DNA from: Acidobacteriota bacterium
Lineage (GTDB): Bacteria; Acidobacteriota; Terriglobia; Acidiferrales; UBA7541
Assembly: GCA_003223215.1 (NCBI GenBank)
Contig: QHYH01000079.1
Coordinates: 124,001 to 188,000, forward strand
Reading direction: 5' to 3'
Length of the DNA: 64,000 nt
A program made the position numbers and the translations under genes. Under the pieces are notes generated by a model. That model saw nothing but the letters and a program-made list of their open reading frames with translations. It was not told the DNA's origin and did not search any database. Below are positions 20,657 to 42,335 of the stretch, one piece after another (the stretch's first letter is position 1; each line of letters opens with the position of its first letter).

Positions 20657-21919
20657 CTAGCCGTGTATCCAAGTTTCGCGCTCGCTGCGTCCACTGTGGT
20701 AAGCAGTGGGCGAGGTGCGGGCCGTTATGAGGAGCTCGGCCAGACGGTTTGCAGCTTTTTGGCCCCCGGTGCTGTCAATCCCTGGTTCATACAGTGGGTA
20801 ATCCGTCCGCTCCAGGTCGTCCATCAACTTGTCGGCCATCCTCTTGGGAGACAATTCGCCCGGATGGACGATGTCGACGAGGCCGAGCCGAGCAAATAGT
20901 CGCGCGCGTGTTTGCTGCTCCGCGCTTGGCCCGGAACGCGGAATGACCAGTCCCTTCTTGCGCAGCCGCAGAAGCTGATACAGGGTGTTGTAGCCTGCCA
21001 TGGTGACCACCAAGTCGGCCGCATTCATGTAGCTCAAGTGATCGTCTACATGGACCAGCACTCGGACCTTTAACCCGTTTGCTAACTCGCGCAGGTGTTC
21101 GCGCTGACCGCCCTCCATCAAAGGCCCGGTTATAAAGATGGCCTCCGGACCCGCGCTTGGGCCCAATAGCCTCAAAGCCTTCATGCACTCCAACATCATC
21201 GGAAAGGCGTCCGCTCCGCCGCCCCCGGTGACCAACAACAATTTGTCCTTCACCTGGAGCTCGTTGCGCATCTCGTTTTGACTTCTGTACGGCTCCTTTT
21301 CGCATACATATCCGACGTAGCGCAATTTCGCCGCGAACTCCCCATCCAGTCCATAGTGGGCCCCGGTATCGAAGATCTCCTTGCGGCCATAGATGAAGAT
21401 CTCGTCGTAATAGCGGCGGATTGCTTCGTAGGTTCCGTCCCTTTCCCAGAGCGTGCGGGTAACTTCCGGGGCGTCCAAAATATCCCTAAGGCCGAGGACG
21501 ATGGTCGGTCTGTCGCCCCGCCGTTGCAACATCTTGAGAGAGGGCAGTAACTCCCCCCAGATCCCCACCGGAACGTGATCCACGAGAAGGATCTGCGGGT
21601 GAAACACGCGAACAGCCTCGTGGATTGTCGCGACGCGCAGAGCTTTGGTCTTCTCCAGGCCAATCCGCAACCGTAACGGCAACCAAACTCCAGTCTGGCG
21701 TTTGACGACCGAAGGAAGCTTGATGAAGTCCACGCCCGTTGGCAGCCTGAACACCGCCCCCGAGGGGCACCCGATCATCATTAACACGCTGGAGTCGGGA
21801 ACCTGGTGGGCCAGGATCGAAGCGATTGTCGTGTTCCTTCTCAGATGCCCCAGTCCAAACCCATCGTGAGAGTAGGTCATGACGCACGTTGCGTTGTCAT
21901 CCTTCTCGAGCTGATTCAT
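20657..21919 (-). CDS. MurG-like predicted glycosyltransferase (COG4671 type)
   Basis: This 420-residue cytosolic GT-B-fold enzyme starts with the characteristic YSHDGFGLGHLRRN and has the nucleotide-sugar half ending in LLVTGGGGADAF, then VLVHVDDHLSYMNAADLVVTMAGYN, in pieces DHLSYMNAADLVV and MAGYNTLYQLLRL, and RSGPSAEQQTRARLF. These are features of the predicted glycosyltransferases of COG4671, related to MurG and UDP-GlcNAc epimerase folds. Donor and acceptor are not known. A good GGAGG site precedes the ATG. It lies upstream of the exported glycosidase on the same strand (397-base gap) and within the exopolysaccharide-like region. Confidence 0.85.
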   Translation of the reverse strand: MNQLEKDDNATCVMTYSHDGFGLGHLRRNTTIASILAHQVPDSSVLMMIGCPSGAVFRLPTGVDFIKLPSVVKRQTGVWLPLRLRIGLEKTKALRVATIHEAVRVFHPQILLVDHVPVGIWGELLPSLKMLQRRGDRPTIVLGLRDILDAPEVTRTLWERDGTYEAIRRYYDEIFIYGRKEIFDTGAHYGLDGEFAAKLRYVGYVCEKEPYRSQNEMRNELQVKDKLLLVTGGGGADAFPMMLECMKALRLLGPSAGPEAIFITGPLMEGGQREHLRELANGLKVRVLVHVDDHLSYMNAADLVVTMAGYNTLYQLLRLRKKGLVIPRSGPSAEQQTRARLFARLGLVDIVHPGELSPKRMADKLMDDLERTDYPLYEPGIDSTGGQKAANRLAELLITARTSPTAYHSGRSERETWIHG

Positions 21920-25309: not shown

Positions 25310-27400
25310 TCAGGTTAGCGGATTTTCTGGTGTGAAGACCGCGGGTTGGTGCGGGGAGACCTGAAGTTGATAAAGATGCGCGTACCGGCCGTTGCGCGCC
25401 AGGAGTTCCGCGTGAGTACCTGCCTCCGCGATGCCCGCCCCGTCAAGCACGACAATGCGATCTGCAAGGCGCACGGTGCTGAGGCGGTGAGCGATGATGA
25501 GCGTAGTGCGTCCGGCTGCCGCCCGCTCCAGCGCGTTCATGACCGTGTGCTCGGCGTGGGCATCGAGACCGCTGGTGGGTTCGTCGAGAATCAAAATAGG
25601 CGCGTTGCGCAGCACGGCACGGGCGATAGCAATTCGCTGTTTCTGCCCGCCGGATAAAGTGGTTCCCCTTTCTCCCACGCGCGTATCGTAGCCCTCGGGA
25701 AGCCGACAAATGAACTCGTCCGCGTTGGCGGTCCTGGCGGCGGCCGAGATCTCCTCGTCGGTTGCGTCCGTCTGACCAAATGTGATGTTGTCCCGGATCG
25801 TACCGCTCAAAAGCAACGAGTCCTGAAGGACCAAACTGATCTGCTCGCGGACCGAGCGAAGGAAATAATTCCGAATGTCTTGTCCGTCGATCATGACCGC
25901 GCCTCCAGTCGGGTCGTAGAAGCGGGGAACTAAACTCACCAGCGTGCTTTTCCCGGCACCGGTGGCCCCGACTATGGCGAGTTTCTCTCCCGGTTTGATG
26001 GAAAGGTTGATGTTGGAAAGAACGGTTACGCCTGGCTCGTATTCAAAGCAGACGTTTCGAAATTCTATGGCTCCCTTGAATCGGGGGGCTGGCCGCGCGC
26101 GTTTGCGGTCTCTGACCTCACTGCGATGCTGCAAAACCTCGACGATGCGCTCGGCGCCTACACTGGCCTTCGTAAAGGTATTCGCCGAACGTGAAATGGA
26201 CTTCATGGGAGTGTAGAAGTTATTCACATAAGCAAAGAAAATGATCACATCGCCGGTTGTGAGCTGGCCGTTAAGAACGCATCTGGCGCCGTACCACATC
26301 ACCATGGTTAGCCCGATGGCTGATAAGCAATCAACGACGGGCGCGATCCGCGCCTGATACCGCACGCTCTCCAAGAAGGCCTCTAGAGTGGTTTCGCTTT
26401 GTGCCTGGAAGCGGTCGTCGATCTGGTCCTCTTGCGCCAGCCCTTGGACGATGCGAATGGAGGCTAGCGTTTCTTGCGCAAGCGCGGCCAGCAGTCCGGT
26501 GCTGGCGCGCGCTCTGCGCGTCGCGCGCTTGATGAGGAGTTTGTGACGATAAACGATCCAGAACATCAGCGGCGAAATCGAGAGGGTAGCGAAAGCGAAC
26601 CTCCAGTTGACCCAGAACATCAGGACAGCCATCCCGGTCAGCAACAGCGCGTTGCTGCAGAAGGAGGTGACGCCGCTCGTAATGAAGTCTTGGATCGATT
26701 GAATGTCCGACGTCAACCGCGTTGTGAGGTCGCCCGTCCTTTGCGTGTCGTGGAAACGCAGGGACAGACGCTGCATATGGGCGAACAGGTCCCGCCGCAG
26801 GTCATAAACGAAAAGCTGGCCGACTTTACCGATTAGGCGGGTATAACAGTAAACGGTTAGACCGGTGGCGATCGCGATAAGAAGGACAGCCGCACAGGCG
26901 CCGTACAAGATTTGCATGCTTGTGAAGGGCGCGGCGTCCAGCCACTGGTGGATCAGAGGCACGCGGCTTGGTTTGTGCGAAAGCACCCGATCAATCACCA
27001 CTTTGAGCGGCCAAGGACGCATGACGCCGAGTACGGCCTCGAACAGCAAGCCCAGAATGGCAAGCAAGATTTTCTTCCAGTAGCGGGGAAGAAAGCGCAG
27101 AAAGTAATGCAGGGTTTCTTTTTCGCGACTTCCAAAGTTCGTCTGACTCTGCCGCTCTTGTCGGTCTTCTGGTTTCGAACTCCGCTGGTCGGAGGGAGTC
27201 GGCGGTTTTTGCCGGGGTTCGTAACCGCGCGCAGTTCCCGCGGGCAGCCCGGGCTCCCCGGGCATCACGTCGACTGCCGAAGCCTGCATCGCATCGGTTC
27301 TTCGCGAAGGCGATGACGCCGTCGGAGCAACCTCTCCCGACCAACCTGGGTAGGCTTCGTCCAGTGCTTTTAGGAAAGCCACTTTGTAGGATCCCGCCAT
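25310..27400 (-). CDS. MsbA-like ABC exporter (fused permease and ATPase)
   Basis: This is a half-transporter of the type IV exporter family that works as a homodimer in the inner membrane. The first ~95 residues are a Pro/Ser/Arg-rich cytosolic extension. Six membrane helices span ~110-400 (IPLMFWIVYRHKLLIK and similar), then the nucleotide-binding domain: Walker A VGATGAGKSTLV, Q-loop LVLQDSLL, signature LSGGQKQRIAIARA, Walker B ILILDEPTSGLD and switch IIAHRLSTV. All ATPase residues are intact. The frame opens at 27499, but ATG 27400 (MAGSYKVAFLKALDEAYPGW) is the more natural start. A lipid, lipid-linked glycan or small amphiphile could be the cargo; with glycosyltransferases around it, a glycolipid or polysaccharide precursor is plausible. 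Confidence 0.88.
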   Translation of the reverse strand: MAGSYKVAFLKALDEAYPGWSGEVAPTASSPSRRTDAMQASAVDVMPGEPGLPAGTARGYEPRQKPPTPSDQRSSKPEDRQERQSQTNFGSREKETLHYFLRFLPRYWKKILLAILGLLFEAVLGVMRPWPLKVVIDRVLSHKPSRVPLIHQWLDAAPFTSMQILYGACAAVLLIAIATGLTVYCYTRLIGKVGQLFVYDLRRDLFAHMQRLSLRFHDTQRTGDLTTRLTSDIQSIQDFITSGVTSFCSNALLLTGMAVLMFWVNWRFAFATLSISPLMFWIVYRHKLLIKRATRRARASTGLLAALAQETLASIRIVQGLAQEDQIDDRFQAQSETTLEAFLESVRYQARIAPVVDCLSAIGLTMVMWYGARCVLNGQLTTGDVIIFFAYVNNFYTPMKSISRSANTFTKASVGAERIVEVLQHRSEVRDRKRARPAPRFKGAIEFRNVCFEYEPGVTVLSNINLSIKPGEKLAIVGATGAGKSTLVSLVPRFYDPTGGAVMIDGQDIRNYFLRSVREQISLVLQDSLLLSGTIRDNITFGQTDATDEEISAAARTANADEFICRLPEGYDTRVGERGTTLSGGQKQRIAIARAVLRNAPILILDEPTSGLDAHAEHTVMNALERAAAGRTTLIIAHRLSTVRLADRIVVLDGAGIAEAGTHAELLARNGRYAHLYQLQVSPHQPAVFTPENPLT

Positions 27401-28049
27401 ACTCAATTTTCCGGCTCCGCAAAGCAGCCTGCTTGCTCGAAGATCGCCTCCATTGCTTGCCTCCCGCCTTCGGTCTGCGGCATCACCCCTTCCACACATC
27501 CAGGTTTACAGATTTGCCGTCCTCGGCGCTGTTACCACGCCAGAATCGCAGGCTCTTGCTGGCTTTGGCTAGGGAGGATCCGCCTAAACGCTATGGTGCG
27601 AAGACACCGGCCCGCGTCGCTCGACAAACAGAAAGGTGTGACCCTCTGGTCGAAACTTGACTTAGGCCTGTTAGGCCCACGGTTCCTTTTGCAAGCCTTA
27701 GGCACGGTAAAAGTTTGCTAAATCTACGGTAACAAGCCAATCCGGCTTTCGCCCGATAACCCCCGCGGGAAATCCAGCAGTAGTCGAGCGAGACCTTTGA
27801 CGGCGGTCAGGACGAGCCAGTCCGGTGCTCGCCGGGAGTGAAGAAGGCGATGGTCCGGGTCATCATCGGCTCGTGCGAAAAGTGGCCGGCCGTTCGGGCC
27901 TTCCCGTATTTCACTGAATGAATCTACCTGCCGGATTTGAGGTATTTCTTGGATTGAAAACCGATTTCCTCTTTGTAGGATCAGGTTTGAGGCGAAGTAC
28001 CCGCCCTCAATCCTCTGGTGGTTCTCGCCCAGGCGGCGCGATTGCCTTA
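27401..28049. other. Divergent intergenic region of about 650 bases
   Basis: It separates the ABC exporter from the glycosyltransferase operon, so promoters for both are expected. Two short perfect hairpins are seen: GGCCT-GTT-AGGCC at 27665-27677 and AAGCC-AATCC-GGCTT near 27735. No regulator site is recognised. The true start of the plus-strand gene may lie further downstream, which would lengthen this gap. Confidence 0.4.
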
Positions 28050-29483
28050 ATGAGCGAACCCCGTGGCGACCGACGCCCGCTGGGCAAAGACCCTGAGACT
28101 GCATGCAAGGAAGAGGAGCGCACTTGGATCTCAGTAGGTGGATTCTGTCTCAAAAGCAGCTGGGACTCGAAGGGCGGAGCTGTGTCCCTTCAGCGCAGAC
28201 GATTTGATTCGATATCTCGTCGGAGTTTGTCGGACAGCGGTTGCGTGAATCCGCAGCCAAATGGACATCCAAAGGTCGGATATGTCGTGAGCGCGTGGCC
28301 GCGGTTATCGGAGACTTTTATCCTGAATGAAGTGGTTGGCGTCGAGCGACTCGGAGTCCGCCTGCAGATTTTTGCTGTGAAGGACGCAAATGATAAATCC
28401 GCTCATCCCAAAGTGGCCGAGGTACGAGCACCGGTGACCTGCCTTTCGATGAAGCGCAACCACAAGGCCATTGGGCTGGCCAGTGTCCGTTTGCTCTTGC
28501 GGCAGCCTGTCAGCTTCTGCCAAACCGGACTCCGTGCCTTGCGATACCGTCGGCGGGGTGCTCTCCGATGCTTTTTTCAAGCGACTTATCTTGCGGAGAT
28601 GCTCTTCCGGGAATCGTTGACTCATCTGCACGCGCACTTCGCGCATGACCCAACCCTGGTCACCATGTTTGTCCATTATCTGACGGGCATTCCCTACAGC
28701 TTCACCGCCCACGCCAAGGATATCTACGTGAAAACCTCGCCCGAGCTGCTTCGCGACGAGGCGCAAGCTGCCGAAGCCGTGGTGACCTGCACGGAGTACA
28801 ACCGTCGGTATATGTCAGCGCAAATCGGCCCAGCCGGCGCTCGAAAACTACATTGCATTTATCACGGCCTTGATCTTTCACCATTTAAGTTCTCCTGCCG
28901 GCGTGCTCTTGCTTCAGAGCCAATGGTGATTCTGTCCGTGGCCAGGCTGGTCGAAAAGAAGGGGTTGCGCGACCTTATCGCGGCCGCGGACATTCTTCGG
29001 CAGCGCGATCGCCGCTTCCAAGTCGAGATTGTCGGGGACGGCCCTCTTCGCCAGAGCCTGGAAGCCCAGGTGAGGCGGCTTGCTCTGGACGACCGAGTAA
29101 AATTCTCAGGACCCTTGCCTCACGACGAGCTCTGCCGTGTTTACCAGAGAGCTTCTCTTTTTGCGCTTCCCTGTGTAGTTGCCGCCGACGGTGACCGCGA
29201 CGGCATTCCTAACGTTTTGCTGGAGGCCATGGCTAGCGGGATACCGGTCGTGTCCACGCCGGTTTCGGGCATTCCTGAGGTGATCAACTCAGAAAGTGAA
29301 GGCCTCCTTGTCCCCCCGAACAACCCCGCCAGCCTTGCCGAGGCGCTCGACAGACTTCTCCACTCGGCTGAGCTGCGGGAACGACTGGCGCTCGCCGCCA
29401 GGGCCAAGATCGAAGCTTGCTTCTCAATCGAAAAGAACTCTGCGCAATTAGTGTCTCTTTTCCAACAGGACGGGGGCGGATGA
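28050..29483 (+). CDS. GT4-type glycosyltransferase (first gene of the exopolysaccharide operon)
   Basis: This is a GT-B-fold retaining glycosyltransferase of the GT4 group. The catalytic part begins at HPKVGYVVSAWPRLSETFIL, in pieces VGYVVSAWPRLSETF, and includes THLHAHFAHDPT, YSFTAHAKDIY, the mid-protein VARLVEKKGLRDLI, VGDGPLR and the C-terminal EAMASGIPVVSTPVSGIPE that binds the donor nucleotide. The region before the core (~70 codons) is not conserved-looking. ATG 28050 is my choice, but a start nearer 28240 is possible. The stop overlaps the next gene's ATG (ATGA), so the two are translationally coupled. Donor and acceptor cannot be told. Confidence 0.88.
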   Translation: MSEPRGDRRPLGKDPETACKEEERTWISVGGFCLKSSWDSKGGAVSLQRRRFDSISRRSLSDSGCVNPQPNGHPKVGYVVSAWPRLSETFILNEVVGVERLGVRLQIFAVKDANDKSAHPKVAEVRAPVTCLSMKRNHKAIGLASVRLLLRQPVSFCQTGLRALRYRRRGALRCFFQATYLAEMLFRESLTHLHAHFAHDPTLVTMFVHYLTGIPYSFTAHAKDIYVKTSPELLRDEAQAAEAVVTCTEYNRRYMSAQIGPAGARKLHCIYHGLDLSPFKFSCRRALASEPMVILSVARLVEKKGLRDLIAAADILRQRDRRFQVEIVGDGPLRQSLEAQVRRLALDDRVKFSGPLPHDELCRVYQRASLFALPCVVAADGDRDGIPNVLLEAMASGIPVVSTPVSGIPEVINSESEGLLVPPNNPASLAEALDRLLHSAELRERLALAARAKIEACFSIEKNSAQLVSLFQQDGGG

Positions 29484-30775
29484 AGATTCTTTATCTATGC
29501 AACGACCCGGGTATCGATCTGGCTGGAAAAAGCGGCGCGGCCATTCATATCCGCTCTTTTGTTCGCGCTCTTGCGGATCTCGGTCACGAAGTTGCTATCG
29601 TCGCTTGCGGTCTGCCGAGCGGTAAGCAAGCTCTCGAAGACAACTTGCGTGCCACGATTTTTCCGGTAGCCCTCGCTCCGTGGAATCGCGCGCTCGCTCG
29701 GGTTCTGCGAACGGCCAACCGGGCGATCGGCCGAACTCCTCGGCGCAGCCCAGATGCGGTTCGCCTCCTTCATAATCTGACGTTCTTCCTCACCGCCAGG
29801 CGGGCCGCGGCGCAACTGCGTCCGGCTTTCATTTACGAGCGTTACAGCCTCTGGGCTGTGGCGGGCCTGTGGTTGGCCAAGGAATGCTCCGTTCCACTGG
29901 TCCTCGAGGTAAACGCGCCCTTCGCCTACGAACAGCAGCACTACCGGTCCGGTGTGACCTGCCCGCCGCTGGCCCGTTGGGTCGAAGGGATGATCTGGAG
30001 AAATGCCGATCTGGTGTTCTCTGTTTCGGAACCACTCTCGAGTCAATTGCGAGATTCCGGGGTGAAGCCCGAGCGGATTCACGTTCTGCCCAACGCCGTC
30101 AACACGGACTTGTTCCATACCGGGCTGGACGGTTCGTCGGTGAGGCAACGTCTTAACCTGCAGGGACGCTTCGTCATCAGCTTCGTCGGTACTTTCAAAC
30201 GCTGGCATGGAGTGGATTTCCTGCTCTCCGCGTTTCAGGTTTTGCACCGGAGTGACCCCTCGATGCACTTACTCCTGGTGGGAGACGGGCCGTTGCGCTC
30301 CCAATTTGAGGAAGAAGTCCGGAAGATGGGGTTGCTCCAAGCAGTCACCTTCGCCGGGGCTCTCGCTCACGAAGATGTGCCTCCGTATTTGGCCGCAACA
30401 GACGTCGCCGTTGCTCCTTACCCCGCTTTGCAGGATTTCTACTTCTCTCCGTTGAAGCTCTTTGAATACATGGCTACCGGTCGCGCCGTCGTTGCAAGCC
30501 GAGTTGGACAGGTCGCAGAAGTCGTCACCGACGGTGTTACGGGTCTGCTATTTGAGCCAGGCAACGTCGCGGATCTGGTCGGTTGCATCCGGAGCCTCCG
30601 GGACAATCCCGCGCTGCGTAGAGAACTGGGGCGAAACGCCAGCGCGGCCTGCGCCAAGCGCACGTGGACCCATAACGGGGCCAAGGTTATCGATCGAGTC
30701 CGGTCGCTCTTTAAGCAAAATGCCGCCTGGCCGCGGCATGCAATCGGGTTAGGCAACTCGCACGCTGAGAATTAG
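29480..30775 (+). CDS. GT4-type glycosyltransferase (second)
   Basis: The 431-residue GT-B enzyme starts MKILYLCNDPGIDLAGKSGA with an N-terminal acceptor domain (HIRSFVRALADLGHEV) and the GT4 donor half: FVGTFKRWHGVDFLL, LLLVGDGPLRSQFEEE, VTFAGALAHEDVPPYLAATD, in pieces GALAHEDVPPYLAATD, and KLFEYMATGRAVVASRVGQ. The ATG at 29480 overlaps the preceding stop by 4 bases and was chosen over an in-frame TTG at 29417 for that reason. It probably adds the next sugar in the same glycan. No membrane segment is seen. Confidence 0.9.
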   Translation: MKILYLCNDPGIDLAGKSGAAIHIRSFVRALADLGHEVAIVACGLPSGKQALEDNLRATIFPVALAPWNRALARVLRTANRAIGRTPRRSPDAVRLLHNLTFFLTARRAAAQLRPAFIYERYSLWAVAGLWLAKECSVPLVLEVNAPFAYEQQHYRSGVTCPPLARWVEGMIWRNADLVFSVSEPLSSQLRDSGVKPERIHVLPNAVNTDLFHTGLDGSSVRQRLNLQGRFVISFVGTFKRWHGVDFLLSAFQVLHRSDPSMHLLLVGDGPLRSQFEEEVRKMGLLQAVTFAGALAHEDVPPYLAATDVAVAPYPALQDFYFSPLKLFEYMATGRAVVASRVGQVAEVVTDGVTGLLFEPGNVADLVGCIRSLRDNPALRRELGRNASAACAKRTWTHNGAKVIDRVRSLFKQNAAWPRHAIGLGNSHAEN

Positions 30776-30815
30776 GTTTTCCTCGGTCTTCGTGATGGGA
30801 GGAAGAAAGTCGGGA

Positions 30816-32285
30816 ATGAACATCGACGACGTGCTATCGGGACGCGCGGGGTCGCAGGGTATCCGCTGGCTCTTGCTTTCCACGACAGCCAAGAAGGCGT
30901 TGGCGGATCAGTTGAGGGCACTCCTTCCGGATGGAGCAGCCGTGCGAGAGTGTCGCTTACGGGAGGTAAGGTTCAAGCCTGGGCGCAAGATCACTGCGTA
31001 TTACGACGTGTCGGCGAGCCCCGTGGATTCCGCAGGGCAGCAGGTTCGCCCTGTCGCCGTAACCTGGGAACAAAATGCACACGCACCTCGGCACGAAGAG
31101 ACGGCTGCTCTTGCCAGAATGCAGGCGGAAGTGGTGCGGCGCGGAGTGGCGGCGCCCTTCGAGCGACTTCTGAGGCATTCTTGCGATTGGAAAATGCGTA
31201 TCTGTGTTTCGCCGCTAGACGCCCGATTCACGCAACTTGCCCGGGTTTCCGATCCGCGGCACATCCGCAACTTGCTGACAAGGACCGGGATTGCCGCGTC
31301 GCCTTCGCGGCGGAGCGGCGAGTACACCGTTACCCCTCTGAAGTACCGGCCCGGCAAGACGCACATCTTGCGCTACGACCCACTGGACCCCGGGGGCGAC
31401 AGCGTTTTTGCCAAGCTCTACATCATCGAAGGCCAGGAACGCGCCTTTCGCCGCGAAGACCCGGCACGCTGTTTTCGCGTGGCGCGCAACGCGGCAGACT
31501 GGCTCGAAGAGCGTGGAGATTGTGGGCGCGCCTTGCGGCCGCTGGCCTACTTCGCTGAGGACGCGGTCGTTGTTTACCCGCAAGCGGCGGGCACGCCCCT
31601 GTCCGACTATGCCCGACGCCGGGTCGACGAGGTCGCCCCGTGGTTCGAGCGCGCCGGAGCGGTCCTCCGTAATCTGCATCAGATGCCGGTGGAGCTGCTC
31701 GGTCCTCTCGGCCCGCCACATGATTTTGCCGCGGAGATTCGGTTAATTGCGAAGAAGAGTGAGCACATCCTCGCGCTCGTTCCCGAGGTCGCGTCGGCGA
31801 TTGAGGCGTTGCTCAACAGCGCGCGAGAACTCGCCGAACGGCTCCCCCAGGAGCCCCCGACCTTCACGCACGGAGACCTCAAATCCGAGCACATCTGGGT
31901 TGCGCCTGGCCGGATCACACTGATGGATTTCGATACTTCTCATTTAGCCGACCCGGCGCTCGATTTGGGGTGTTTTTTGGCCGATTGGCAGTTTTGGAAT
32001 GTCACTTGTCACGCTGGATTAGAAAAGATGCAGGAAAGTTTCCTCGCGGGTTACTCGCCCGGCGTGCCGAAAGAGCGCTTGATGCGCGCTCGTCTATACG
32101 AAGCCATCGAGTTGGTCAAATGCGCTGTTCGTCGGGTCCAACTCTTCGAGCACGATTGGGTGCACCGTACCGCCGCGCTGGTTGAACGCGCCCAGGCAGT
32201 GCTCGACCATCTTCAATTTACCTTCGGCATAGCTCGCTACGGCTGTGCCGCCACCACCGGTGAAGAACGGAGAGAACTACCATGA
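30816..32285 (+). CDS. APH-fold kinase (phosphotransferase family), paralogue A
   Basis: The ~489-residue protein has the aminoglycoside-phosphotransferase/choline-kinase catalytic core near the C terminus: THGDLKSEHIWV (catalytic Asp in HGDL) and LMDFDTSHLADPALDLG (metal-binding Asp). The N-terminal third reads REVRFKPGRKITAYYDV, and about 130 residues later a similar strand pair occurs, LKYRPGKTHILRYDP, which is the normal kinase N-lobe; the first copy looks like a duplicated lobe. ATG 30816 (MNIDDVLSG) matches the start of the minus-strand paralogue at 40839-42335 and has a GGAGGAAG site. The substrate is unknown. Its place between glycosyltransferases and the AMIN-Oar gene (4-base overlap) suggests phosphorylation of a sugar, lipid or glycan end. 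Confidence 0.85.
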   Translation: MNIDDVLSGRAGSQGIRWLLLSTTAKKALADQLRALLPDGAAVRECRLREVRFKPGRKITAYYDVSASPVDSAGQQVRPVAVTWEQNAHAPRHEETAALARMQAEVVRRGVAAPFERLLRHSCDWKMRICVSPLDARFTQLARVSDPRHIRNLLTRTGIAASPSRRSGEYTVTPLKYRPGKTHILRYDPLDPGGDSVFAKLYIIEGQERAFRREDPARCFRVARNAADWLEERGDCGRALRPLAYFAEDAVVVYPQAAGTPLSDYARRRVDEVAPWFERAGAVLRNLHQMPVELLGPLGPPHDFAAEIRLIAKKSEHILALVPEVASAIEALLNSARELAERLPQEPPTFTHGDLKSEHIWVAPGRITLMDFDTSHLADPALDLGCFLADWQFWNVTCHAGLEKMQESFLAGYSPGVPKERLMRARLYEAIELVKCAVRRVQLFEHDWVHRTAALVERAQAVLDHLQFTFGIARYGCAATTGEERRELP

Positions 32286-35200
32286 TCCAAAGATACCTTT
32301 GCCTGCCCGTCCTCCTTACGGCCGTATTTTGCATGGGCGCGCCTGTCCGCGCACAGCAAGGCTCTCCACCCCAACACGCGCAAAACCAGCGCGCGCTGAG
32401 TACGCCGGACTCGGCTTCCCGCAGCGTCGTAGCGGGCGGAACGCCGTCGGTGCAAGAGGTGGAAGTGAGGCGCGTGCGCATCTCGAAGACGGACCGTTGC
32501 CAAGTGATCATGGAACTCGGAGGCCGGGTGCACTATCAGGCCGTCCGCCTCTCTGATCCGGATCGCATCTACTTCGACATCGAACACGCCCGATTGAGCA
32601 ATGAACTCCTGGACCAGCCGATCGACGTTCCTTCCGGTAGCTGCCTGAAGGCGGTCCGCGTGGCACAAAACCGCGCGGACGTGGTGCGCGTGGTGCTGGA
32701 TGTGGCCCAAGTAAAAGATTACTCCGTCTCTGAACTTGCCGATCCCGATCGCTTAGTGGTCGATCTATACGGGGCGGCCAATAGCACGGCCGCGGCTGCA
32801 AATTCCGCGACCGAAACGAGTGCGAAGACCGTGGAAGTGAGTCGCTTGCGCGTCTCGAACGCGAACAACTGCGCCCAAGTGATCATGGATCTCGGAGGCC
32901 GGGTGCAATATCAGGCCGCCCGCCTCTCTGATCCGGATCGCGTCTACTTCGACATCAAACACGCGCGATTGAGCAATGAACTCCTGCGCCAGCCGATCGA
33001 CGTTCCTTCCGGCCGCTGCCTGAAGGCGGTGCGCGTGGCACAAAACCGCGCGGACGTGGTGCGCGTAGTGCTGGATGTGGCCCAACTAAAAGATTACTCC
33101 GTCTCTGAACTCGCCGTTCCCGATCGCCTGGTGGTCGACGTATACGGGTCAGCCGATAACACGGCCGCAAATGCCGCGCCGGAAACGGGCGCGAAGACCA
33201 CCGCTTTGGCGCCGGGGAGCTCGGCGCCTGAGGTTCGAGGGGAAGCTTCAGCACCAAAGACAGCGCCATCGGAAACCGCGCCAAGTCCCGCCACAGCGGA
33301 AGCCTCAGCACCAAAGACAGCGCCATCGGAAACCGCGCCAAGTCCCGCCACAGGGGAAGCCTCGACACCAAAGACAGCGCCATCGGAAACCGCGCCAAGT
33401 CCCGCCACAGCGGAAGCCTCGACACCAAAGACAGCGCCATCGGAAACCGCGCCAAGTCCCGCCACAGGGGAAGCCTCGACACCAAAGACAGCGCCATCGG
33501 AAACCGCGCCGGGTCCCGCCATAGCTCCGCTGCCTCCTTCCGTGAAGGCCCCGCCTTCTCCATCGCCCATGCCCACTTCGTTGGGAGTCGCCACGGCAAC
33601 CGCCGTTGGGCAATCGCCATCGCCAAAAACCACGGCCGATCGCCAAGACCCCCGGCCCGCCTCAAAACTCACGGTAGCCAGCAGTCCTCAAGACACAGGG
33701 GCGGTGCGCGGAAACGTTCACGATCCCGACGGCACCGCCGTGCCGGATACCAATGTTGATCTGACCAACTCGAGCGGAGGGCAGCGCCTTAGCACGACAA
33801 CCGACGAAGACGGCGTTTTTGAGTTTACGAAAGTCCCTCCGGGAAACTATGCTCTGCATGTGATCATCCCCGGCTTCGAGCCGGTCGAAAAACCGGTCGT
33901 TGTCGGATCGGAACCGCTAGCCCGCATTCGGGTAAAGCTCAAGATTGCGCAGGTTTCCGAGAAGGTGACGGTCAGTGGACAGTCGGTCGTCGTCGCGGAG
34001 GAAAATCGCAGCCAGGCTCGATTCGATGAGCACATGGTGATGAACATGCCGGTGCGCGATGCCGACCCTTTGGTTGTTCCTTCTTTGTTTCTCAACCCTG
34101 CGGTGGTCGGTTCGAGCGGACCGACTCTCATTGTGGATGGCGTGGAGACCAGTTCTCTCGATCTGCCCACTTCGAGCGTGAAAAGCGTGACCGTCGACCA
34201 GAATCCGTATTCGCCGGAATTCGGACGGCCCGGCAAGGGCCGGCTGGAAATCACTACCCGGAAAGGCGTCCACAGCCGTTACCGGGGCAACGTGCTCGCG
34301 ATGTTCCGTAATTCCGCGCTGGATGCCCGTAATGCTCTAGCGGTGGAGCGGCCGGTGCAGCAGCGCGGAATCGGCGAGGTGGAATTGGATGGCCCGCTTA
34401 CTGGTTCCGGACTGACGACCTTTTTCGTGGCGGGACGCTACCATCTCTTTAACAATAGTGCGGTGGTTGACGCAACCACACCGCCGGGACTGGTCGTAAA
34501 CAACATTACGACGCCGGGAGGCAGCTTGATAGAGAACGTCGCGGTTCCCGAGCGCACGACCTCTTTGTTCGGCAGGGTCGACAGCCACTTCCGCCCGACT
34601 CACACGTTATCCCTTTTCTATAAGTACAAAGATAGCAAGCTGGACAACCAGGGCGTTGGCGGGCTCGATCTTCCGGATCGAGGAACGAACTTTTTTGAGC
34701 ATGAGAATGAGTTTAGGGCTGTCGAAACGGCAACACCTTCGGCAAATTTTCAAAACCAGGCACGCTTTACCTACAAACAGGACCGTCAGAGTACAACCAG
34801 CGTGTCCAATGACCCTGCCGTAATTGTCCTCGGTGCCTTCAATTCCGGAGGCGCCCAAACGGACCGCCACTTGACGGAAACCATGGCCGACGCGCAGGAC
34901 GTGGCCTCGCTTTTTTACGGCCGCCATAATCTGAGGTTCGGTACGGGGGTGAAACTCCGGTACTTCTCCGCCGAAGACCGCTCCAATTTTGGCGGTACCT
35001 TCACTTTTTCGAGCCTGGCAGATTTCCAGAGCACGCCATCCCCGCAGCCCTCGCAGTTCAACATGAACTTCGGCAATCCCTCGGTTGACTTCCAGGACCA
35101 CCAAGTTTTTGCCTTTCTGCAGGACCAGCTACGTCTGCTGCCGAACTTGTCGGTTATGGCGGGATTGCGGTATGAGTTCCAGCCCGCTGTTTCCCACTAC

Positions 35201-36247
35201 CAGAATCTAGCTCCGCGTCTCGCGGTGGCTTACTCCCCCGGAGGCACCAACCGCATTCTCTCGAACACCGTGTTCCGCGGGGGCTTCGGAATTTTCTACG
35301 ATCGGCAGCCATACTTGATGCAGCAAGACGGCCTCCTTTATGACGGGTCGGCTATCCGCGGGATCGTTCTATCTTGCCCGTTATCCTGCCCGTCCTACCC
35401 TAACGCCTTTCTGCCTGGCAACCCGCCGGCGGCCGTGGCTACACCTAGCATCAGAACGACTGATCCCAATATCCGCTTCCCCTATCTGATGCAGGGCAGT
35501 CTGGCGATTGAGCGCAAACTCTGGCGCGGCCAGAATTATCTCACGCTGGAACTTTCGACCGTGCGTGGCCTGGACCTCTACCGCTCGCGCAACATCAATG
35601 CCCCGCTCCCCGGGACCATCAGCCCTCCCAACCCCAATTTTGTCAACATTGATCAATTCGAGGCCTCGGGCTCCTCGCGCAGCAATAGCTTGTCCATCGC
35701 CTACAAGGGGGACGTCCACAAACTGAATATCATGCTTCAATATGTCCTCTCCCGCACTCTTGACGACGTTAATGACGTCAAGAACGGCTTTCTTTATACG
35801 CCGGCCAATAATTACAATCCGCACGGCGACTGGGGCCGCTCGGATCTCGACCGCAGGCATCGCTTCAATGCGGTTTTCCTCTATCCATTGCGGTTCGGCT
35901 TTCATGTGTCGGGAATCGTCAATGTCTGGTCGGGCCTCCCCTACAACATCACCACGGGCAAGGACGACAATTACGATACCGTCTTTAATGATCGCCCCCT
36001 GGGCCTTTGGCGCAATGCCGGGCGCGCGGCGGGCTACACCGACGTGGACTTGCGTCTGACCAAACGCTGGCGGGTCACGCACAGCGAGCATGCGCACTTT
36101 GTCGAAGCTGCGGTGGACGTCTTCAATATCTTCAACCACACAAATTTTGGAAGCTACAACGGTGTACTCTCCTCGCCGACGTTTGGCCAACCCTACACCG
36201 CCAACTCCGCCCGGCAGCTCCAGGTTTCTGTGCGTTATCACTTCTGA
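32282..36247 (+). CDS. AMIN-AMIN-Oar-type outer-membrane TonB-dependent-receptor-like protein
   Basis: The 1321-residue protein has a signal peptide (LCLPVLLTAVFCMGAPVRAQ), then two near-identical AMIN-like domains at ~60-165 and ~185-292 (VIMELGGRVHYQ / VIMDLGGRVQYQ, then RVVLDVAQVKDYSV). A Pro/Thr/Ser linker with five 19-residue repeats covers 321-415. A carboxypeptidase-regulatory beta domain lies at ~473-559 (GAVRGNVHDPDGTAVPDT), a shortened plug-like part at ~570-650 (LIVDGVE) and a large beta-barrel to the C-terminal aromatic residue (VSVRYHF). AMIN domains bind peptidoglycan or localise envelope proteins. An Oar-type barrel with two AMIN domains is not an arrangement I know. The gene overlaps the kinase gene by 4 bases (ATGA) and is followed 31 bases later by the epimerase, so it is part of the polysaccharide operon. 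Confidence 0.88.
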   Translation: MIQRYLCLPVLLTAVFCMGAPVRAQQGSPPQHAQNQRALSTPDSASRSVVAGGTPSVQEVEVRRVRISKTDRCQVIMELGGRVHYQAVRLSDPDRIYFDIEHARLSNELLDQPIDVPSGSCLKAVRVAQNRADVVRVVLDVAQVKDYSVSELADPDRLVVDLYGAANSTAAAANSATETSAKTVEVSRLRVSNANNCAQVIMDLGGRVQYQAARLSDPDRVYFDIKHARLSNELLRQPIDVPSGRCLKAVRVAQNRADVVRVVLDVAQLKDYSVSELAVPDRLVVDVYGSADNTAANAAPETGAKTTALAPGSSAPEVRGEASAPKTAPSETAPSPATAEASAPKTAPSETAPSPATGEASTPKTAPSETAPSPATAEASTPKTAPSETAPSPATGEASTPKTAPSETAPGPAIAPLPPSVKAPPSPSPMPTSLGVATATAVGQSPSPKTTADRQDPRPASKLTVASSPQDTGAVRGNVHDPDGTAVPDTNVDLTNSSGGQRLSTTTDEDGVFEFTKVPPGNYALHVIIPGFEPVEKPVVVGSEPLARIRVKLKIAQVSEKVTVSGQSVVVAEENRSQARFDEHMVMNMPVRDADPLVVPSLFLNPAVVGSSGPTLIVDGVETSSLDLPTSSVKSVTVDQNPYSPEFGRPGKGRLEITTRKGVHSRYRGNVLAMFRNSALDARNALAVERPVQQRGIGEVELDGPLTGSGLTTFFVAGRYHLFNNSAVVDATTPPGLVVNNITTPGGSLIENVAVPERTTSLFGRVDSHFRPTHTLSLFYKYKDSKLDNQGVGGLDLPDRGTNFFEHENEFRAVETATPSANFQNQARFTYKQDRQSTTSVSNDPAVIVLGAFNSGGAQTDRHLTETMADAQDVASLFYGRHNLRFGTGVKLRYFSAEDRSNFGGTFTFSSLADFQSTPSPQPSQFNMNFGNPSVDFQDHQVFAFLQDQLRLLPNLSVMAGLRYEFQPAVSHYQNLAPRLAVAYSPGGTNRILSNTVFRGGFGIFYDRQPYLMQQDGLLYDGSAIRGIVLSCPLSCPSYPNAFLPGNPPAAVATPSIRTTDPNIRFPYLMQGSLAIERKLWRGQNYLTLELSTVRGLDLYRSRNINAPLPGTISPPNPNFVNIDQFEASGSSRSNSLSIAYKGDVHKLNIMLQYVLSRTLDDVNDVKNGFLYTPANNYNPHGDWGRSDLDRRHRFNAVFLYPLRFGFHVSGIVNVWSGLPYNITTGKDDNYDTVFNDRPLGLWRNAGRAAGYTDVDLRLTKRWRVTHSEHAHFVEAAVDVFNIFNHTNFGSYNGVLSSPTFGQPYTANSARQLQVSVRYHF
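32458..33155 (+). repeat. Tandem duplication of the AMIN-coding segment
   Basis: Two copies with a 375-base offset (about 32458-32780 and 32833-33155). Long blocks are nearly identical at DNA level, including synonymous sites, which indicates a recent duplication or gene conversion. Confidence 0.85.
33242..33526 (+). repeat. Five 57-base tandem repeats in the Pro/Thr linker
   Basis: Units start at 33242, 33299, 33356, 33413 and 33470 and encode EASxPKTAPSETAPSPATx (19 residues). Differences are limited to a few bases. The minisatellite keeps the reading frame on gain or loss of units, so linker length can vary. Confidence 0.95.
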
Positions 36248-36278: not shown

Positions 36279-37319
36279 ATGCGTGACCAACGAAAGAGCG
36301 TGCTGCTGACCGGCGGAGCCGGATTCATCGGATCCCATCTTGCCGAGGCCTTGCTGCGTCGCGGCTCTCGGCTAGCCATCGTGGACAATTTTGATCCCTT
36401 CTACGACTACCATTTGAAGAAAGCCAACCTCGAAGCCAGCGCCCGCGTTGGCAGCTACGAGTTTTATGCCGTCGATATTTGCAATAAAGCGCAGCTTTCT
36501 CAGATCATGACAGTCCATCGTCCTGAGGTGGTCATTCATCTGGCCGCGTGCGTGGGTGTGCGTCCCTCCATCCGCCAGCCCCACTGGTACGAACAGGTAA
36601 ACGTGGCTGGCACTTTGAACCTGCTGGAGCTCTGCCGCGAGTTTCATGTGGACAAGTTCATCTTTGGTTCCTCCAGTTCTGTCTATGGCGCCACCGACCG
36701 TGCGCCTTTTTCCGAAAAGCAATCGGAATTACGTCCGCTCTCTCCCTATGCGGCCACGAAACTGGCCGGTGAGATGATGGCTTACACCTACGCGCAGTTG
36801 TTCAGACTGCAGGTAATCTGCCTGCGCTTCTTCACCGTGTACGGTCCACGGCAGCGCCCAGACCTCGCCATCCGCAAGTTCACAGCGTTGATCGAGGAAG
36901 GCAAGCCGCTCCCTATTTTTGGAGATGGTTCGACGGCTCGTGACTATACCCATGTGAGTGATATTGTGGCCGGAATACTGGCTAGCCTTGATTACAGCTT
37001 CAAGGTTCCCTCGGACTGTGCCCCCTTTGAGGTCTTTAATCTCGGCAATTCGCATGCGGTCAAGCTCACTGAGCTTATCGAATTGCTAGAGACGGTAACC
37101 GGACACAAGGCCATCTGCGAATGGCGCCCCCCGCAGCCTGGCGATTCGCCAGTGACCTGGGCAGATATATCCAAAGCGAGCCACCTGCTCGGGTACCGCC
37201 CGGCCACATCCCTCGAAGAGGGGCTTGCAAGTTTTGTGAACTGGTACCGGGACGTGGCGCCGGTGTGGGCGCCCACCGCACACACGGCTGTGGACAGTGT
37301 GCAAAATGCATTGGGCTAG
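36279..37319 (+). CDS. NAD-dependent sugar-nucleotide epimerase (UDP-glucuronate 4-epimerase-like)
   Basis: A short-chain dehydrogenase of the extended GalE type, 346 residues, in the cytosol. The Rossmann motif is GGAGFIGSHLAEALL near residue 10, followed by VDNFDPFYDYHLKKAN, which is the pattern of UDP-glucuronate epimerases. The catalytic Ser is in GSSSSVYG and the YxxxK pair in YAATKLAGE. RFFTVYGPRQRPDLAI and FGDGSTARDYTHVSDIV complete the substrate site. It most likely makes UDP-galacturonate from UDP-glucuronate, supplying an acidic sugar to the glycosyltransferases of this operon. UDP-galactose or another 4-epimer is the alternative. Confidence 0.88.
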   Translation: MRDQRKSVLLTGGAGFIGSHLAEALLRRGSRLAIVDNFDPFYDYHLKKANLEASARVGSYEFYAVDICNKAQLSQIMTVHRPEVVIHLAACVGVRPSIRQPHWYEQVNVAGTLNLLELCREFHVDKFIFGSSSSVYGATDRAPFSEKQSELRPLSPYAATKLAGEMMAYTYAQLFRLQVICLRFFTVYGPRQRPDLAIRKFTALIEEGKPLPIFGDGSTARDYTHVSDIVAGILASLDYSFKVPSDCAPFEVFNLGNSHAVKLTELIELLETVTGHKAICEWRPPQPGDSPVTWADISKASHLLGYRPATSLEEGLASFVNWYRDVAPVWAPTAHTAVDSVQNALG

Positions 37320-37426: not shown

Positions 37427-38668
37427 ATGCGAATCGCTTACTATGTTCCCCGTGCAACCTACCTTGAGAGTTGTCCCGGCGGTGAAAAACACACCTCGGG
37501 GAGTGGCATGTTCATCACCAACGTGTTGACCGGTCTCAGAGACCGCGGGCATGAGGTGAAAATTATTTCTCGGTTGGACGTGCGTGGCTTCTGGCGTGGC
37601 CAGCTCCCCGCGCGTCGTCTCCTCGCCGAGGCGGCTTTGGTGCGCGGGGAAGTTAAGAGATTCTCGCCAGACGCCTGGCTTGTCTACGCCTCTTCGGTTC
37701 AGTATCCCGACCTGTTCGGCTGGTGGCAGCATCCCAAAAGGTACGTACTCCTCGGTTGCGAAGGATCAGGCGAGCAAAGAGTCGAGGCGTTGCCCAAACC
37801 GTGGCGACACCTGTACACCTTTGCGTTCCGGAAGTCGTTACAGCGAGCGCACAAGGTCGTCGCGGTCCGAGCAATGGGGGAACTCGGAGGAGCGATGCAA
37901 CATCTCCGCAGTTGGGGGGTTCCTGAAGAAAGAATCTGCTTCCTTCCGCTCGCGGTAAAAACTTGGACGCGCCTGCCCAGCCGCGAGGAAGCACGCCGCG
38001 TGCTCGGGCTGCCGCAGGACGGGCCGATCGTCCTGTGCGTGAGCCGCTTTTCGGTTCGAAAACACAAGGATGACCCGCGACCCGGAAAAGCGGAGTCGGT
38101 CCTCGACTTGATGCGTGCCTTCGCGGCGCTTCCTCGAAACGCTCTCCTGCTGCTGGTTGGTGACGGCGACGGCCGCGCCCAAATAGAAAACGAAGCGGCA
38201 AGGCTCCATCTTGGGGAACGCGTCCACCTGGCCGGCGAAGTGCAGCACAGCGAGATCAGCTGGTACTACGCTGCTTGCGATTTCTTTGCCATCCCGGAGA
38301 AGGCCGAAAGTAACCGTCCCTATCAGGCATTACTCGAGGCTCAGGCGGCTGGTCGGGCCGTGATCACCATGGATACGGATCTGGCCCAGATAACCACGGA
38401 AGCCGGCCGCTCGGGTCTGCTCGCAAAAGACTCCGAGGAGTTCCAAACTCACCTGCGCGCACTCGCCAAGGACCGGAGCAGGTGCGACGAGATGGGTCGG
38501 GCAGCGGCTGCCTTTGTGGCGCGCTCCTACTCCATCGAGGTCCGTGCCGCTCAAATCGAGCAATTACTCCTCGGTTCCGCGGAAGCTGCAAATGGCAGGT
38601 ATCCTCTTCCCGCTCATCAGAGCGGCGTTTTCTCCGCTCAGGAGATGCTTACGAAGAACCCGCACTAG
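37427..38668 (+). CDS. GT4-type glycosyltransferase (third)
   Basis: The 413-residue GT-B enzyme begins MRIAYYVPRATYLESCPGG with the loop GSGMFITNVLTGLRDRGHEV. The donor half has LCVSRFSVRKHKDDPRPGKA (an unusual long insertion after the first strand), LLLVGDGDGRAQIENEA, VHLAGEVQHSEISWYYAACDF, in pieces GEVQHSEISWYYAACDF, and EAQAAGRAVITMDTDL. The usual EAMA motif reads EAQA with the catalytic-type Glu kept. A GGAAGGGAG site precedes the ATG. It lies 107 bases after the epimerase and 18 bases before another APH-fold kinase gene, in the same operon. Confidence 0.85.
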   Translation: MRIAYYVPRATYLESCPGGEKHTSGSGMFITNVLTGLRDRGHEVKIISRLDVRGFWRGQLPARRLLAEAALVRGEVKRFSPDAWLVYASSVQYPDLFGWWQHPKRYVLLGCEGSGEQRVEALPKPWRHLYTFAFRKSLQRAHKVVAVRAMGELGGAMQHLRSWGVPEERICFLPLAVKTWTRLPSREEARRVLGLPQDGPIVLCVSRFSVRKHKDDPRPGKAESVLDLMRAFAALPRNALLLLVGDGDGRAQIENEAARLHLGERVHLAGEVQHSEISWYYAACDFFAIPEKAESNRPYQALLEAQAAGRAVITMDTDLAQITTEAGRSGLLAKDSEEFQTHLRALAKDRSRCDEMGRAAAAFVARSYSIEVRAAQIEQLLLGSAEAANGRYPLPAHQSGVFSAQEMLTKNPH

Positions 38669-38686: not shown

Positions 38687-39763
38687 ATGGATCGTCCCGC
38701 CTTGCGCGAGGGGAGCAACATGTCGGAACCGATGGGCAACTCCGGGAATTCGCAACTCTTCACTCCCGCGGTTCGCGGCGATTCGCCTGATGCGATCCCC
38801 CGGCTCGCCGAGCTGGATGGCTCTACGTTGGCCGAACAAATCGGCGGGCTTCCCACCTCTCGGTGGCCCTGGGGTACCCCCCGAGAGGTTCGCATCCAAT
38901 TGCTGGCCTCGCACCCGGAGCCGCACTGCACTTTCGAGATCGGCGTCCGCGCTCGCGACGGGTGGCATCGCCTGATCGGCAAAGCCTACGCGACCGACCA
39001 TCACTACGTGTATCAAGTCATGGAGAGACTGAGGTATGCAGGTCTTGGCCCGGAAGACGAATTCTCGACCCCACGAGCGATTGCTTATCTGCCGTCCTTG
39101 CGTCTGCTCTTGCAGGAAAAGGTCGAGGGAACATCAGCGAAGGACATTTTCAAACTCGGGGATGACCGCCCATGCCGATCGGCGGCAGATCGATGCGGGC
39201 GATGGTTAGGCCGCTTCCAAACCTTAGCCCCGACCTCCGGTCGAACCTCGGGGATCGCGAGGTTTCTTACGAGCGCGGAACGTAAATGCCGACTGCTCTC
39301 CGAGGCAGACCGTGCTTGGATGGTCAGAACCGAGCAACTGCTCGAACGCTTGAAAGCCGCCGCACCATTTCTTGACCCTGGCCTTGCGTGTGCTGGTCAC
39401 GGCGACTTTTGCGAACACCAGATTATTCTCACCGAGGGACGCACGGTGGTCTTTGATTGGGACCTTCATGACATCGCCCATCCCGCGCGCGACGTCGCAA
39501 AATTTATTGTCAGCCTCGAGCGGCTAGCGATGAACGGTCTTGGCTCCGTCCGCGCCCTAGACACTGCCGCCGAGGTGTTTCTTGGGGCTTACCTCGGCTC
39601 CGGCGGGCATCCGGAGGTTCCCGCTGCCCTGCCGTTCTACAAGGCGGTCTTCTGGCTAAAGGGCCGGACTACAGCAATTCGGACGAAGGCCGTCGGGTGG
39701 CGCGAGCAAGCCGAGATCATGTTCAGTGAAAGCTTGAGAAACATCGCTAACGGTCTTCCTTAA
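38687..39763 (+). CDS. APH-fold kinase (phosphotransferase family), shorter type
   Basis: The 358-residue protein has the catalytic loop GHGDFCEHQIIL and the metal-binding VFDWDLHDIAHPARDVAKF, both APH-family signatures. The N lobe is recognisable as CTFEIGVRARDGWHRLIGKAY and LLLQEKVEG. It is more distant from the other two APH-fold proteins of the window and lacks their duplicated N-terminal part. The start may instead be ATG 38720 (MSEPMGN); the upstream residues are not conserved-looking. It closes the plus-strand polysaccharide operon. Substrate unknown: sugar, lipid carrier or a nascent glycan are candidates. Confidence 0.8.
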   Translation: MDRPALREGSNMSEPMGNSGNSQLFTPAVRGDSPDAIPRLAELDGSTLAEQIGGLPTSRWPWGTPREVRIQLLASHPEPHCTFEIGVRARDGWHRLIGKAYATDHHYVYQVMERLRYAGLGPEDEFSTPRAIAYLPSLRLLLQEKVEGTSAKDIFKLGDDRPCRSAADRCGRWLGRFQTLAPTSGRTSGIARFLTSAERKCRLLSEADRAWMVRTEQLLERLKAAAPFLDPGLACAGHGDFCEHQIILTEGRTVVFDWDLHDIAHPARDVAKFIVSLERLAMNGLGSVRALDTAAEVFLGAYLGSGGHPEVPAALPFYKAVFWLKGRTTAIRTKAVGWREQAEIMFSESLRNIANGLP

Positions 39764-40838: not shown

Positions 40839-42335
40839 TTAATGTAGGTACCTGCTCTTAACTCGGGAACTCCCCGCAAAGCTGCGTGGCACCAAGAATC
40901 GCCGTGTGCGCAAAACGAGCGTGCGCTGGACATCGTCTATAGCAGCCTCAGCACAGTCAACTACCCCTTCAATACGGGACGCCCAGTCGTTCTCGAAGAG
41001 CGGTACCCGGCGCACCGCACATTTGAGCAACTCGACGGCCTCACATAGGCGGGAGCGGATCGAGAAATCTTTCCTCGCACTGGCGGCGTACCCGGCAAAG
41101 AAACTCTGGTACATCCCCTCTATTTTGGCCTGATCCCAGTCGGCTTGCTGGAACTGCCAATCGGCCAGGAAATATCCTACATCGAGGGCCGGGTCGGCCG
41201 GGCGCGCGCTGTCGAAATCCATCACGGTAAGCCCGTCGGCCGCAGCCCAGATGTGTTCAGTTTTGAGGTCACCGTGTGTGAAGGTTGGCGGTTCCTGGGG
41301 CAGGCGGTCGTGCAATTCCCGCGCACGGTCGAGGAGGGCCTCAATCGCCGATCCGACATGTGGCAGGAGAACCGCGATAGGATGGCTCTTCCGCACAATC
41401 GACCGAATCTCTGCCGAAAGATCATGGGGCTCAGATCGGCCAGCGAGCGCCACAGGGAGGCGATGCAAAGTGCGGAGCGCTGCCCCGGCACGGCGCAGCC
41501 ACCGCGCGCTGTCCAGGTTAAGGCGCCGCGCGTAGGTGGACAGGGGCACACCGCAAAGTCGTGGGTAAAGGACAACCGCATCCTCAGCCAGGTAGGCCAG
41601 CGGCCGCAGACAATTCAAGCCCCTGCAGTGTTCTGCCACCGCGTCTGCTACGTCGCACGCAACGCGGAAAGTGCGGGCTCCGTCCTCGCGGCGAAAGGCG
41701 CGGGCCTCTTCTTCGGCGATATAGACTTTGGCGAATAGCGTTGCCCCGCTAGCTGGATCGCCCGGATCGTAGCGCAGCACGTGTCGCCTGCCCGGTCGAT
41801 ATTTAATTGATGTGACAATCCAATCGCTGGTTTGATGGTGATGCGACGCTGCCTTACCGGACTCGTAGGTGTCGGCCAGCATGGCGCGCACGTGACGCGG
41901 ATCCGACAGGCGAGCAAGCTGGGTGAATCGGGCATCCAGCGGCGAGACCTGGATACGCATGCTCCAAGCGGGAAAATCCGCCATCAGTTGCAGGAAGGGT
42001 GCCGCCACCGAGTGGCGCTCCGCTTCGGCCACCGCCTTGATGATATCGGCCTTCCAATTTGCGCCAGTATCCGGTCCCCAGGATACCGCTATGGGGCGAA
42101 CGCAAGTCTCCTTCGTCTCCCTGCCTTCGCGGTAAATACGCGCGTCGTAGTAAGCCGTGAGCTCGCGGCCGGGCTTGAATCGCACCTCCCTTGGATGAAG
42201 CGGCCCCGGCAGGGCCCGCGCCGGTAGAAGGGCCCTCAGCTGATCTGCTAAAACCTTGCAGGCCGTGGCAGAGAATAACACCCATTGGATACCTCTCCAC
42301 TTAGCCCGTCCTGAGACGACGTCAGCAATGTTCAT
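40839..42335 (-). CDS. APH-fold kinase (phosphotransferase family), paralogue B
   Basis: The 498-residue paralogue of the plus-strand kinase at 30816-32285 is similar over its whole length (MNIADVVSGRAKWRGIQWVL against MNIDDVLSGRAGSQGIRWLL). It keeps HGDLKTEHIWAA with the catalytic Asp and VMDFDSARPADPALDVG with the metal-binding Asp. Both xPGR/xPGK strand motifs are present, EVRFKPGRELTAYYDA and IKYRPGRRHVLRYDP, again about 130 residues apart. It is encoded opposite to the polysaccharide operon and faces a sensor kinase gene. Two copies this close suggest duplication with inversion or transposition and possibly different acceptor substrates. Confidence 0.85.
   Translation of the reverse strand: MNIADVVSGRAKWRGIQWVLFSATACKVLADQLRALLPARALPGPLHPREVRFKPGRELTAYYDARIYREGRETKETCVRPIAVSWGPDTGANWKADIIKAVAEAERHSVAAPFLQLMADFPAWSMRIQVSPLDARFTQLARLSDPRHVRAMLADTYESGKAASHHHQTSDWIVTSIKYRPGRRHVLRYDPGDPASGATLFAKVYIAEEEARAFRREDGARTFRVACDVADAVAEHCRGLNCLRPLAYLAEDAVVLYPRLCGVPLSTYARRLNLDSARWLRRAGAALRTLHRLPVALAGRSEPHDLSAEIRSIVRKSHPIAVLLPHVGSAIEALLDRARELHDRLPQEPPTFTHGDLKTEHIWAAADGLTVMDFDSARPADPALDVGYFLADWQFQQADWDQAKIEGMYQSFFAGYAASARKDFSIRSRLCEAVELLKCAVRRVPLFENDWASRIEGVVDCAEAAIDDVQRTLVLRTRRFLVPRSFAGSSRVKSRYLH

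Follow-up and report, generated by a model that had tools for sequence, protein, structure and literature searches.

An Oar-type outer-membrane protein with two AMIN domains encoded within a glycosyltransferase gene cluster of an Acidobacteriota bacterium

Acidobacterial genomes encode dozens of Oar-type outer-membrane barrels, almost none of which has an assigned function. In the 64,000-nucleotide stretch of a soil acidobacterium analysed here (the window; contig QHYH01000079.1, positions 124,001 to 188,000), one such barrel raises a specific question, i.e. what a predicted TonB-dependent transporter (TBDT) carrying two domains of a peptidoglycan-binding family might do amongst glycosyltransferase genes. 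The gene, here called AMIN-Oar, is an open reading frame at 32282-36247 on the forward strand, with an ATG start and encoding 1321 amino acids. The answer that we tentatively prefer, at slightly less than even likelihood, is that AMIN-Oar is an Oar-type TBDT dedicated to the glycan or glycolipid product of its cluster and tethered to peptidoglycan by two amidase-derived AMIN domains.

An earlier, sequence-only reading had divided this single 1321-residue chain into a signal peptide, an AMIN pair, a linker, CarboxypepD_reg and a barrel, an architecture that the sequence, Pfam and structural models bear out. The signal peptide (residues 1-24, ending APVRAQQG; 32282-32353), read by eye without a signal-peptide program, precedes AMIN domain 1 (residues 58-166; 32453-32779) and AMIN domain 2 (residues 185-293; 32834-33160), PF11741 matching both stretches (86.5 bits, cut-off 20.5, E 1.4e-24). 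A linker (residues 292-473; 33155-33700) composed largely of A, P, T and S (22, 20, 15 and 14%, respectively), and whose DNA includes five units of a 57-bp tandem repeat (33241-33525), leads into the CarboxypepD_reg domain (PF13620, 59.9 bits; residues 475-553; 33704-33940). This is followed by a TonB-box-like motif, EKVTVS (residues 560-565; 33959-33976), recognised by resemblance and by its conservation as E-x-V/I/L-x-V in most of the barrel subfamily, and by a plug-like region (approximately residues 570-653; 33989-34240) identified from its position and from the AlphaFold2 model. The barrel itself (34241-36244) matches PF25183 (OMP_b-brl_4; 198.9 bits, cut-off 30), whilst the AlphaFold2 model of residues 474-1321 (predicted local distance difference test score, pLDDT, 68) contains around 22 barrel strands, counted by eye, and the 50 PDB matches listed for it are TBDTs, e.g. 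PirA, FusA, Cir, SusC and RagA. The classical TBDT models PF00593 and PF07715 (Plug) find no match in the protein, and the plug-like sequence and model region ahead of the barrel are recognised without PF07715. By its CarboxypepD_reg domain and modelled 22-strand TBDT-fold barrel AMIN-Oar classifies as an Oar-type TBDT; its dependence on TonB is a prediction, and TonB_C proteins are numerous in the same genome.

Residues of approximately 60-292 had been proposed to be AMIN, and another fold for this region is ruled out by the two Pfam matches, by the AlphaFold2 model of residues 25-300, which contains two repeated beta domains, and by Foldseek, which at E <= 0.001 matches this model to just two PDB structures, namely PilQ in the Myxococcus xanthus type IVa pilus model and Escherichia coli AmiC. 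Peptidoglycan binding and septal or polar placement are established for AMIN in PilQ and AmiC, the AMIN domains of PilQ binding peptidoglycan and being needed for such placement (PMC5285504, PMC10653833). Phylogenetic trees group the AMIN copies of AMIN-Oar with those of TPR-AMIN-Amidase_3 amidases from the neighbouring genus g7, which are also their nearest matches in sequence (aligned regions 63-66% identical). The amidase AMINs of genus g1 stand far apart from them, and capture from the host genus's own amidase is accordingly unsupported. Strict nesting of the fusion AMINs within the g7 amidases is not significant (approximately unbiased test, p 0.186). Local similarity to one g7 amidase (L047) covers residues 185-416 at 51% identity, reaching past AMIN to the Pro-rich linker, part of this being low-complexity sequence, and no AMIN homologues were found on plasmids. 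Ratios of nonsynonymous to synonymous substitution (dN/dS) of 0.18-0.42 for both AMIN copies, 0.19-0.24 for the barrel and 0.54-1.0 for the linker indicate purifying selection upon both AMIN copies and hardly any upon the linker, whose repeats visibly differ among species.

AMIN-Oar overlaps the upstream gene for an APH-fold kinase (30792-32285, +; PF01636) by an ATGA (sequence ...CCATGATCC..., ATG at 32282, TGA at 32283-32285), as the sequence-only reading had noted. To place the barrel, its sequence was searched against 95 genomes of the order, mostly fragmented assemblies. Its close relatives, from genus g1 and other genera, are mostly AMIN-free frames of approximately 850-1040 amino acids, and the window barrel is a member of a short-barrel Oar subfamily. 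Among 22 related loci, BLAST with the window cluster's own genes detected an ABC exporter, APH-fold kinases and/or glycosyltransferases near the barrel at 19, of which 15 have a full MsbA-type exporter; the set is absent at L094, L103 and L089, the last having its barrel at the edge of a contig. Of 20 other PF25183 loci in the window's own genome, taken as controls, none has an ABC exporter, APH kinase or glycosyltransferase, leaving unsupported a chance association amongst many Oar genes, although the related loci are non-independent and 19/22 versus 0/20 consequently cannot be taken as a probability. Across the class, the gene set occurs wholly or partly at 3 of 20 further loci (G562, G095 and G097, from three other families) and is not present at the remaining 17, whose barrels show approximately 31-36% identity; together with the controls, this indicates that the association belongs to the short-barrel subfamily and not to Oar barrels generally. 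The polysaccharide-operon link previously proposed for AMIN-Oar is therefore real, and tied to the whole subfamily, but it is independent of AMIN, which genome G011 lacks at the same operon.

These clusters are of two types, both containing an ABC exporter and APH kinases: a GT4 type (the window, G011, G017 contig C94 and G041 contig C361), and a type with a glycoside hydrolase (GH)/GT2 fusion (contig C151 of the window's genome, and others). The recurrent fusion in the second type joins a PF02836 glycoside-hydrolase-like TIM barrel to a GT2 glycosyltransferase (e.g. L099:11272-13830, on C151, and L090:876-3950). At L088:12419-17753 (G032:C40) five tandem APH-fold kinase genes are followed by an MsbA-type ABC exporter and a short-barrel Oar gene, and at L086:3879-4328 (G011:C497) the remnant of a second short-barrel Oar gene (plug part, 59% identity) directly follows the ABC exporter gene.

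Fusion of AMIN to the barrel was found in five genomes, i.e. the window's own, G024, G018 and G030 (each with two AMINs), and G041 (one AMIN, another genus), and in all five it lies in this same operon; a fusion common away from polysaccharide genes, the outcome that would have spoken against the sequence-only reading, was not seen. In the barrel tree the five fusion barrels and that of G011 form one strongly supported group. In G011 only approximately 87 bp separate the kinase stop from the start of the CarboxypepD_reg match, leaving this orthologue without AMIN; the trees accommodate either gain of AMIN after the G011 line split or its loss in that line. Two copies are interrupted, in G030 at ambiguous bases of the assembly and in G041 where the CarboxypepD_reg region seems to be frameshifted. 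The two AMIN copies within G018 and within G030 are 92 and 97% identical in DNA, compared with 81-88% to other genomes, pointing to homogenisation or separate duplications. GT3 is as similar between the window's genome and G041 (86% identity) as it is within g1 (83-87%), which would also agree with the operon having passed between genera. The simplest history would have AMIN taken over from a g7-type amidase within an operon that genera share, with tandem duplication following in g1. The fusion is rare and, by all appearances, derived. Upstream of AMIN-Oar in G024, the APH kinase gene (L046:7856-8539, on C149) lacks its middle (residues ~115-380) with both ends in one frame, which may reflect a genuine deletion within the gene or a join made during assembly.

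A phylum-wide AMIN search covered 396 genomes, and among the matches listed, which may omit weaker AMINs, none of the long frames inspected has a TBDT barrel; a wide spread of the fusion was accordingly not seen on this evidence. These frames, at least eleven of 996-1492 amino acids and one of 971, have C-terminal ends that by eye resemble those of secretins, of amidases or of an OmpA-like protein, and in L143:3985-6972 (G376:C4) AMIN lies at the C-terminus of a long protein in which an OmpA-like stretch was recognised by eye. L051:1125-4730 (G029:C289), on a short contig, encodes 1202 amino acids with four AMIN domains in ~226-residue repeats; its C-terminal part has no Pfam match and reads like a secretin/TonB short N-terminal domain. 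L052:1339-4395 (G028:C123) encodes a Wzc-like protein (Wzz and BY-kinase; 1019 amino acids) whose periplasmic portion contains an inserted AMIN domain; its gene directly follows one for Poly_export/SLBB and precedes those for a MurJ-like flippase and a glycosyltransferase. It was found in one genome only, which gives no support to a wider Wzc-AMIN family.

The operon setting of the subfamily suggests a wall-tethered outer-membrane route for a sugar product, for which we infer binding to peptidoglycan, placement, substrate and the direction in which transport runs. Once made in the cytoplasm by the glycosyltransferases, the product would cross the inner membrane through the ABC protein and the outer membrane through the TonB-driven barrel, and the flexible linker of ~180 residues would allow the two AMIN domains to keep the barrel attached to the cell wall. 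Like PilQ and AmiC, the tether would most likely be found at septal or polar peptidoglycan, the product leaving there, and it should leave the TonB box unblocked because both AMIN domains lie N-terminal to the box, across the flexible linker. Export is preferred over re-uptake in view of the biosynthetic nature of the cluster and of the exporter gene in it. M. xanthus Oar is a TBDT that secretes a protein with the Ton system, and TBDT importers having the same N-terminal domain also exist (PMC6434023). Several points weigh against the preferred reading: TBDTs are mostly importers; the AMIN-free orthologue of G011, in the same operon, does without a tether; the N-terminal extension of Oar was dispensable for secretion in the published case (PMC6434023); the ABC gene of the window is on the strand opposite to AMIN-Oar, so that the layout gives no support for co-transcription; and, as noted, two of the five fusion copies are interrupted.

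The import bias of TBDTs, shared by the PDB matches of the barrel model, favours an alternative that we consider unlikely though serious, namely that the cluster exports a small glycoconjugate or saccharide metabolite via the MsbA-type exporter and the Oar TBDT retakes it, or its complex, in the manner of siderophore exporter/receptor pairs, AMIN merely positioning the receptor. MsbA-type exporters also carry small molecules, such families being among the matches of the ABC gene, and tandem APH kinases, up to five at L088, would also suit a saccharide metabolite cluster. The GH/GT2-fusion and GT4 sets, however, resemble glycan synthesis, and no catabolic or uptake gene was recognised next to the barrel. 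By analogy, protein secretion in the manner of M. xanthus Oar could likewise be envisaged.

A structural tether of OmpA type, in which the barrel fastens the outer membrane, or else a glycan on the surface, to the wall and does not transport the glycan, would suit the two domains of a wall-binding family on their long flexible linker and the turnover of linker sequence at a near-constant length (~167-185 residues in three of four species); yet the G030 linker is 108 residues long, AMIN-free orthologues hold the same operon position, and the plug region and TonB-box-like motif, superfluous in a pure anchor, are kept, making this improbable. Least probable of all is that AMIN was captured by accident, the fusion being neutral or in decay and playing no part in where the barrel sits: rarity (five genomes in one group), the retained operon of AMIN-free G011 and the interrupted copies would fit, but the dN/dS of AMIN lies near that of the barrel and below that of the linker, and both copies of the duplicated AMIN are retained in four species.

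Comparison with known systems places these features in context. In the TBDT N-terminus survey of PMC6434023 (Fig. 9), AMIN is among the domains defining its five architectures, N-terminal to a TonB-dependent barrel as in AMIN-Oar, although that survey required PF00593 and PF07715, both unmatched here; AMIN with a TBDT is therefore already catalogued and not new in kind. The earlier view that Oar barrels lack AMIN stands for the window's genome, where AMIN occurs in three genes only (AMIN-Oar, an Amidase_3 amidase and a secretin) as against ~65 Oar barrels scored. A cyanobacterial TBDT survey (PMC2771747) contained no relevant AMIN text, and the literature searched held no description of the AMIN-AMIN-CarboxypepD_reg-PF25183 combination or of the subfamily-wide link to the ABC/kinase/glycosyltransferase set. 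M. xanthus Oar shares the CarboxypepD_reg domain, the 22-strand barrel, a TonB-box-like motif and, to judge by the plug-like region of AMIN-Oar, probably the plug, but has neither AMIN nor linker, its known substrate is the protease PopC, and, as described in PMC6434023, it is not placed in a glycosyltransferase/ABC exporter operon. The AmiC-like TPR-AMIN-Amidase_3 amidases (family f1), though closest in AMIN sequence, are soluble hydrolases with Amidase_3 where AMIN-Oar has its barrel, whilst PilQ, likewise an outer-membrane protein with AMIN and placed by it at septal or polar peptidoglycan, is a multimeric pilus secretin of unrelated barrel type. The ABC protein is of the same type as MsbA and NdvA-ChvA exporters with dedicated synthases, systems of which a TBDT is not known to be a component. 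Wza/Wzc (OPX/PCP) loci similarly combine glycosyltransferases and nucleotide-sugar genes with an export function, whereas the window cluster has a TBDT and no OPX/PCP among the window genes scanned.

A bolder extension, which we regard as doubtful, is an undescribed Acidobacteriota glycan export route in which an MsbA-type ABC exporter and a TonB-driven Oar barrel would stand in place of Wza/Wzc, APH kinases would phosphorylate the glycan or its precursors, and AMIN borrowed from an amidase would, in one lineage, anchor the site of exit at septal or polar peptidoglycan. TonB-driven glycan export, if true, would extend TBDT-driven secretion, as of PopC by Oar, to carbohydrates. The company of an ABC exporter, kinases and glycosyltransferases in any case gives the short-barrel subfamily a testable function, and AMIN capture from an amidase would be one way for an outer-membrane transporter to gain a cell-wall address tag.

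The remaining genes of the cluster were assigned by profile matches. Upstream of AMIN-Oar lie the MsbA-type ABC exporter (25310-27499, -), which recurs at related loci and whose type, MsbA or NdvA-ChvA, is assigned at scores below equivalog cut-offs, and two GT4 glycosyltransferases, one EpsE-like (27918-29483, +; true start probably further in) and one at 29417-30775 (+; true start probably ~20 codons further in). Downstream, the UDP-sugar epimerase and glycosyltransferase of the sequence-only reading correspond to a GalE/GDP-Man-dehydratase-like SDR (36279-37319, +), a putative nucleotide-sugar epimerase, and a GT4 enzyme (37427-38668, +); both families stand, but the best NCBIfam match of the SDR, galE, scores 200.6 bits, below its cut-off of 262.3, making 'UDP-sugar epimerase' a family-level guess. 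A second APH-fold kinase (38687-39763, +; PF01636) follows, and a third (40839-42335, -; PF01636), a paralogue of that at 30792-32285, is of uncertain cluster membership; a search of solved structures for the APH substrate gave weak matches only. Neither OPX, Wzz/Wzc nor Wzx/Wzy proteins were recognised among the window genes scanned, nor was any Poly_export (PF02563) or Wzz (PF02706) domain, for which the rest of the genome was not searched. A GT28-C-like glycosyltransferase (20657-21919, -) has a homologue that heads the G011 and G017 clusters. A lone PF02836 protein is encoded at 18907-20259, and a PF04185 phosphoesterase with four Ig-like domains (22950-24983) adjoins the ABC exporter, homologues of this phosphoesterase flanking the cluster in G024, G041 and G017.

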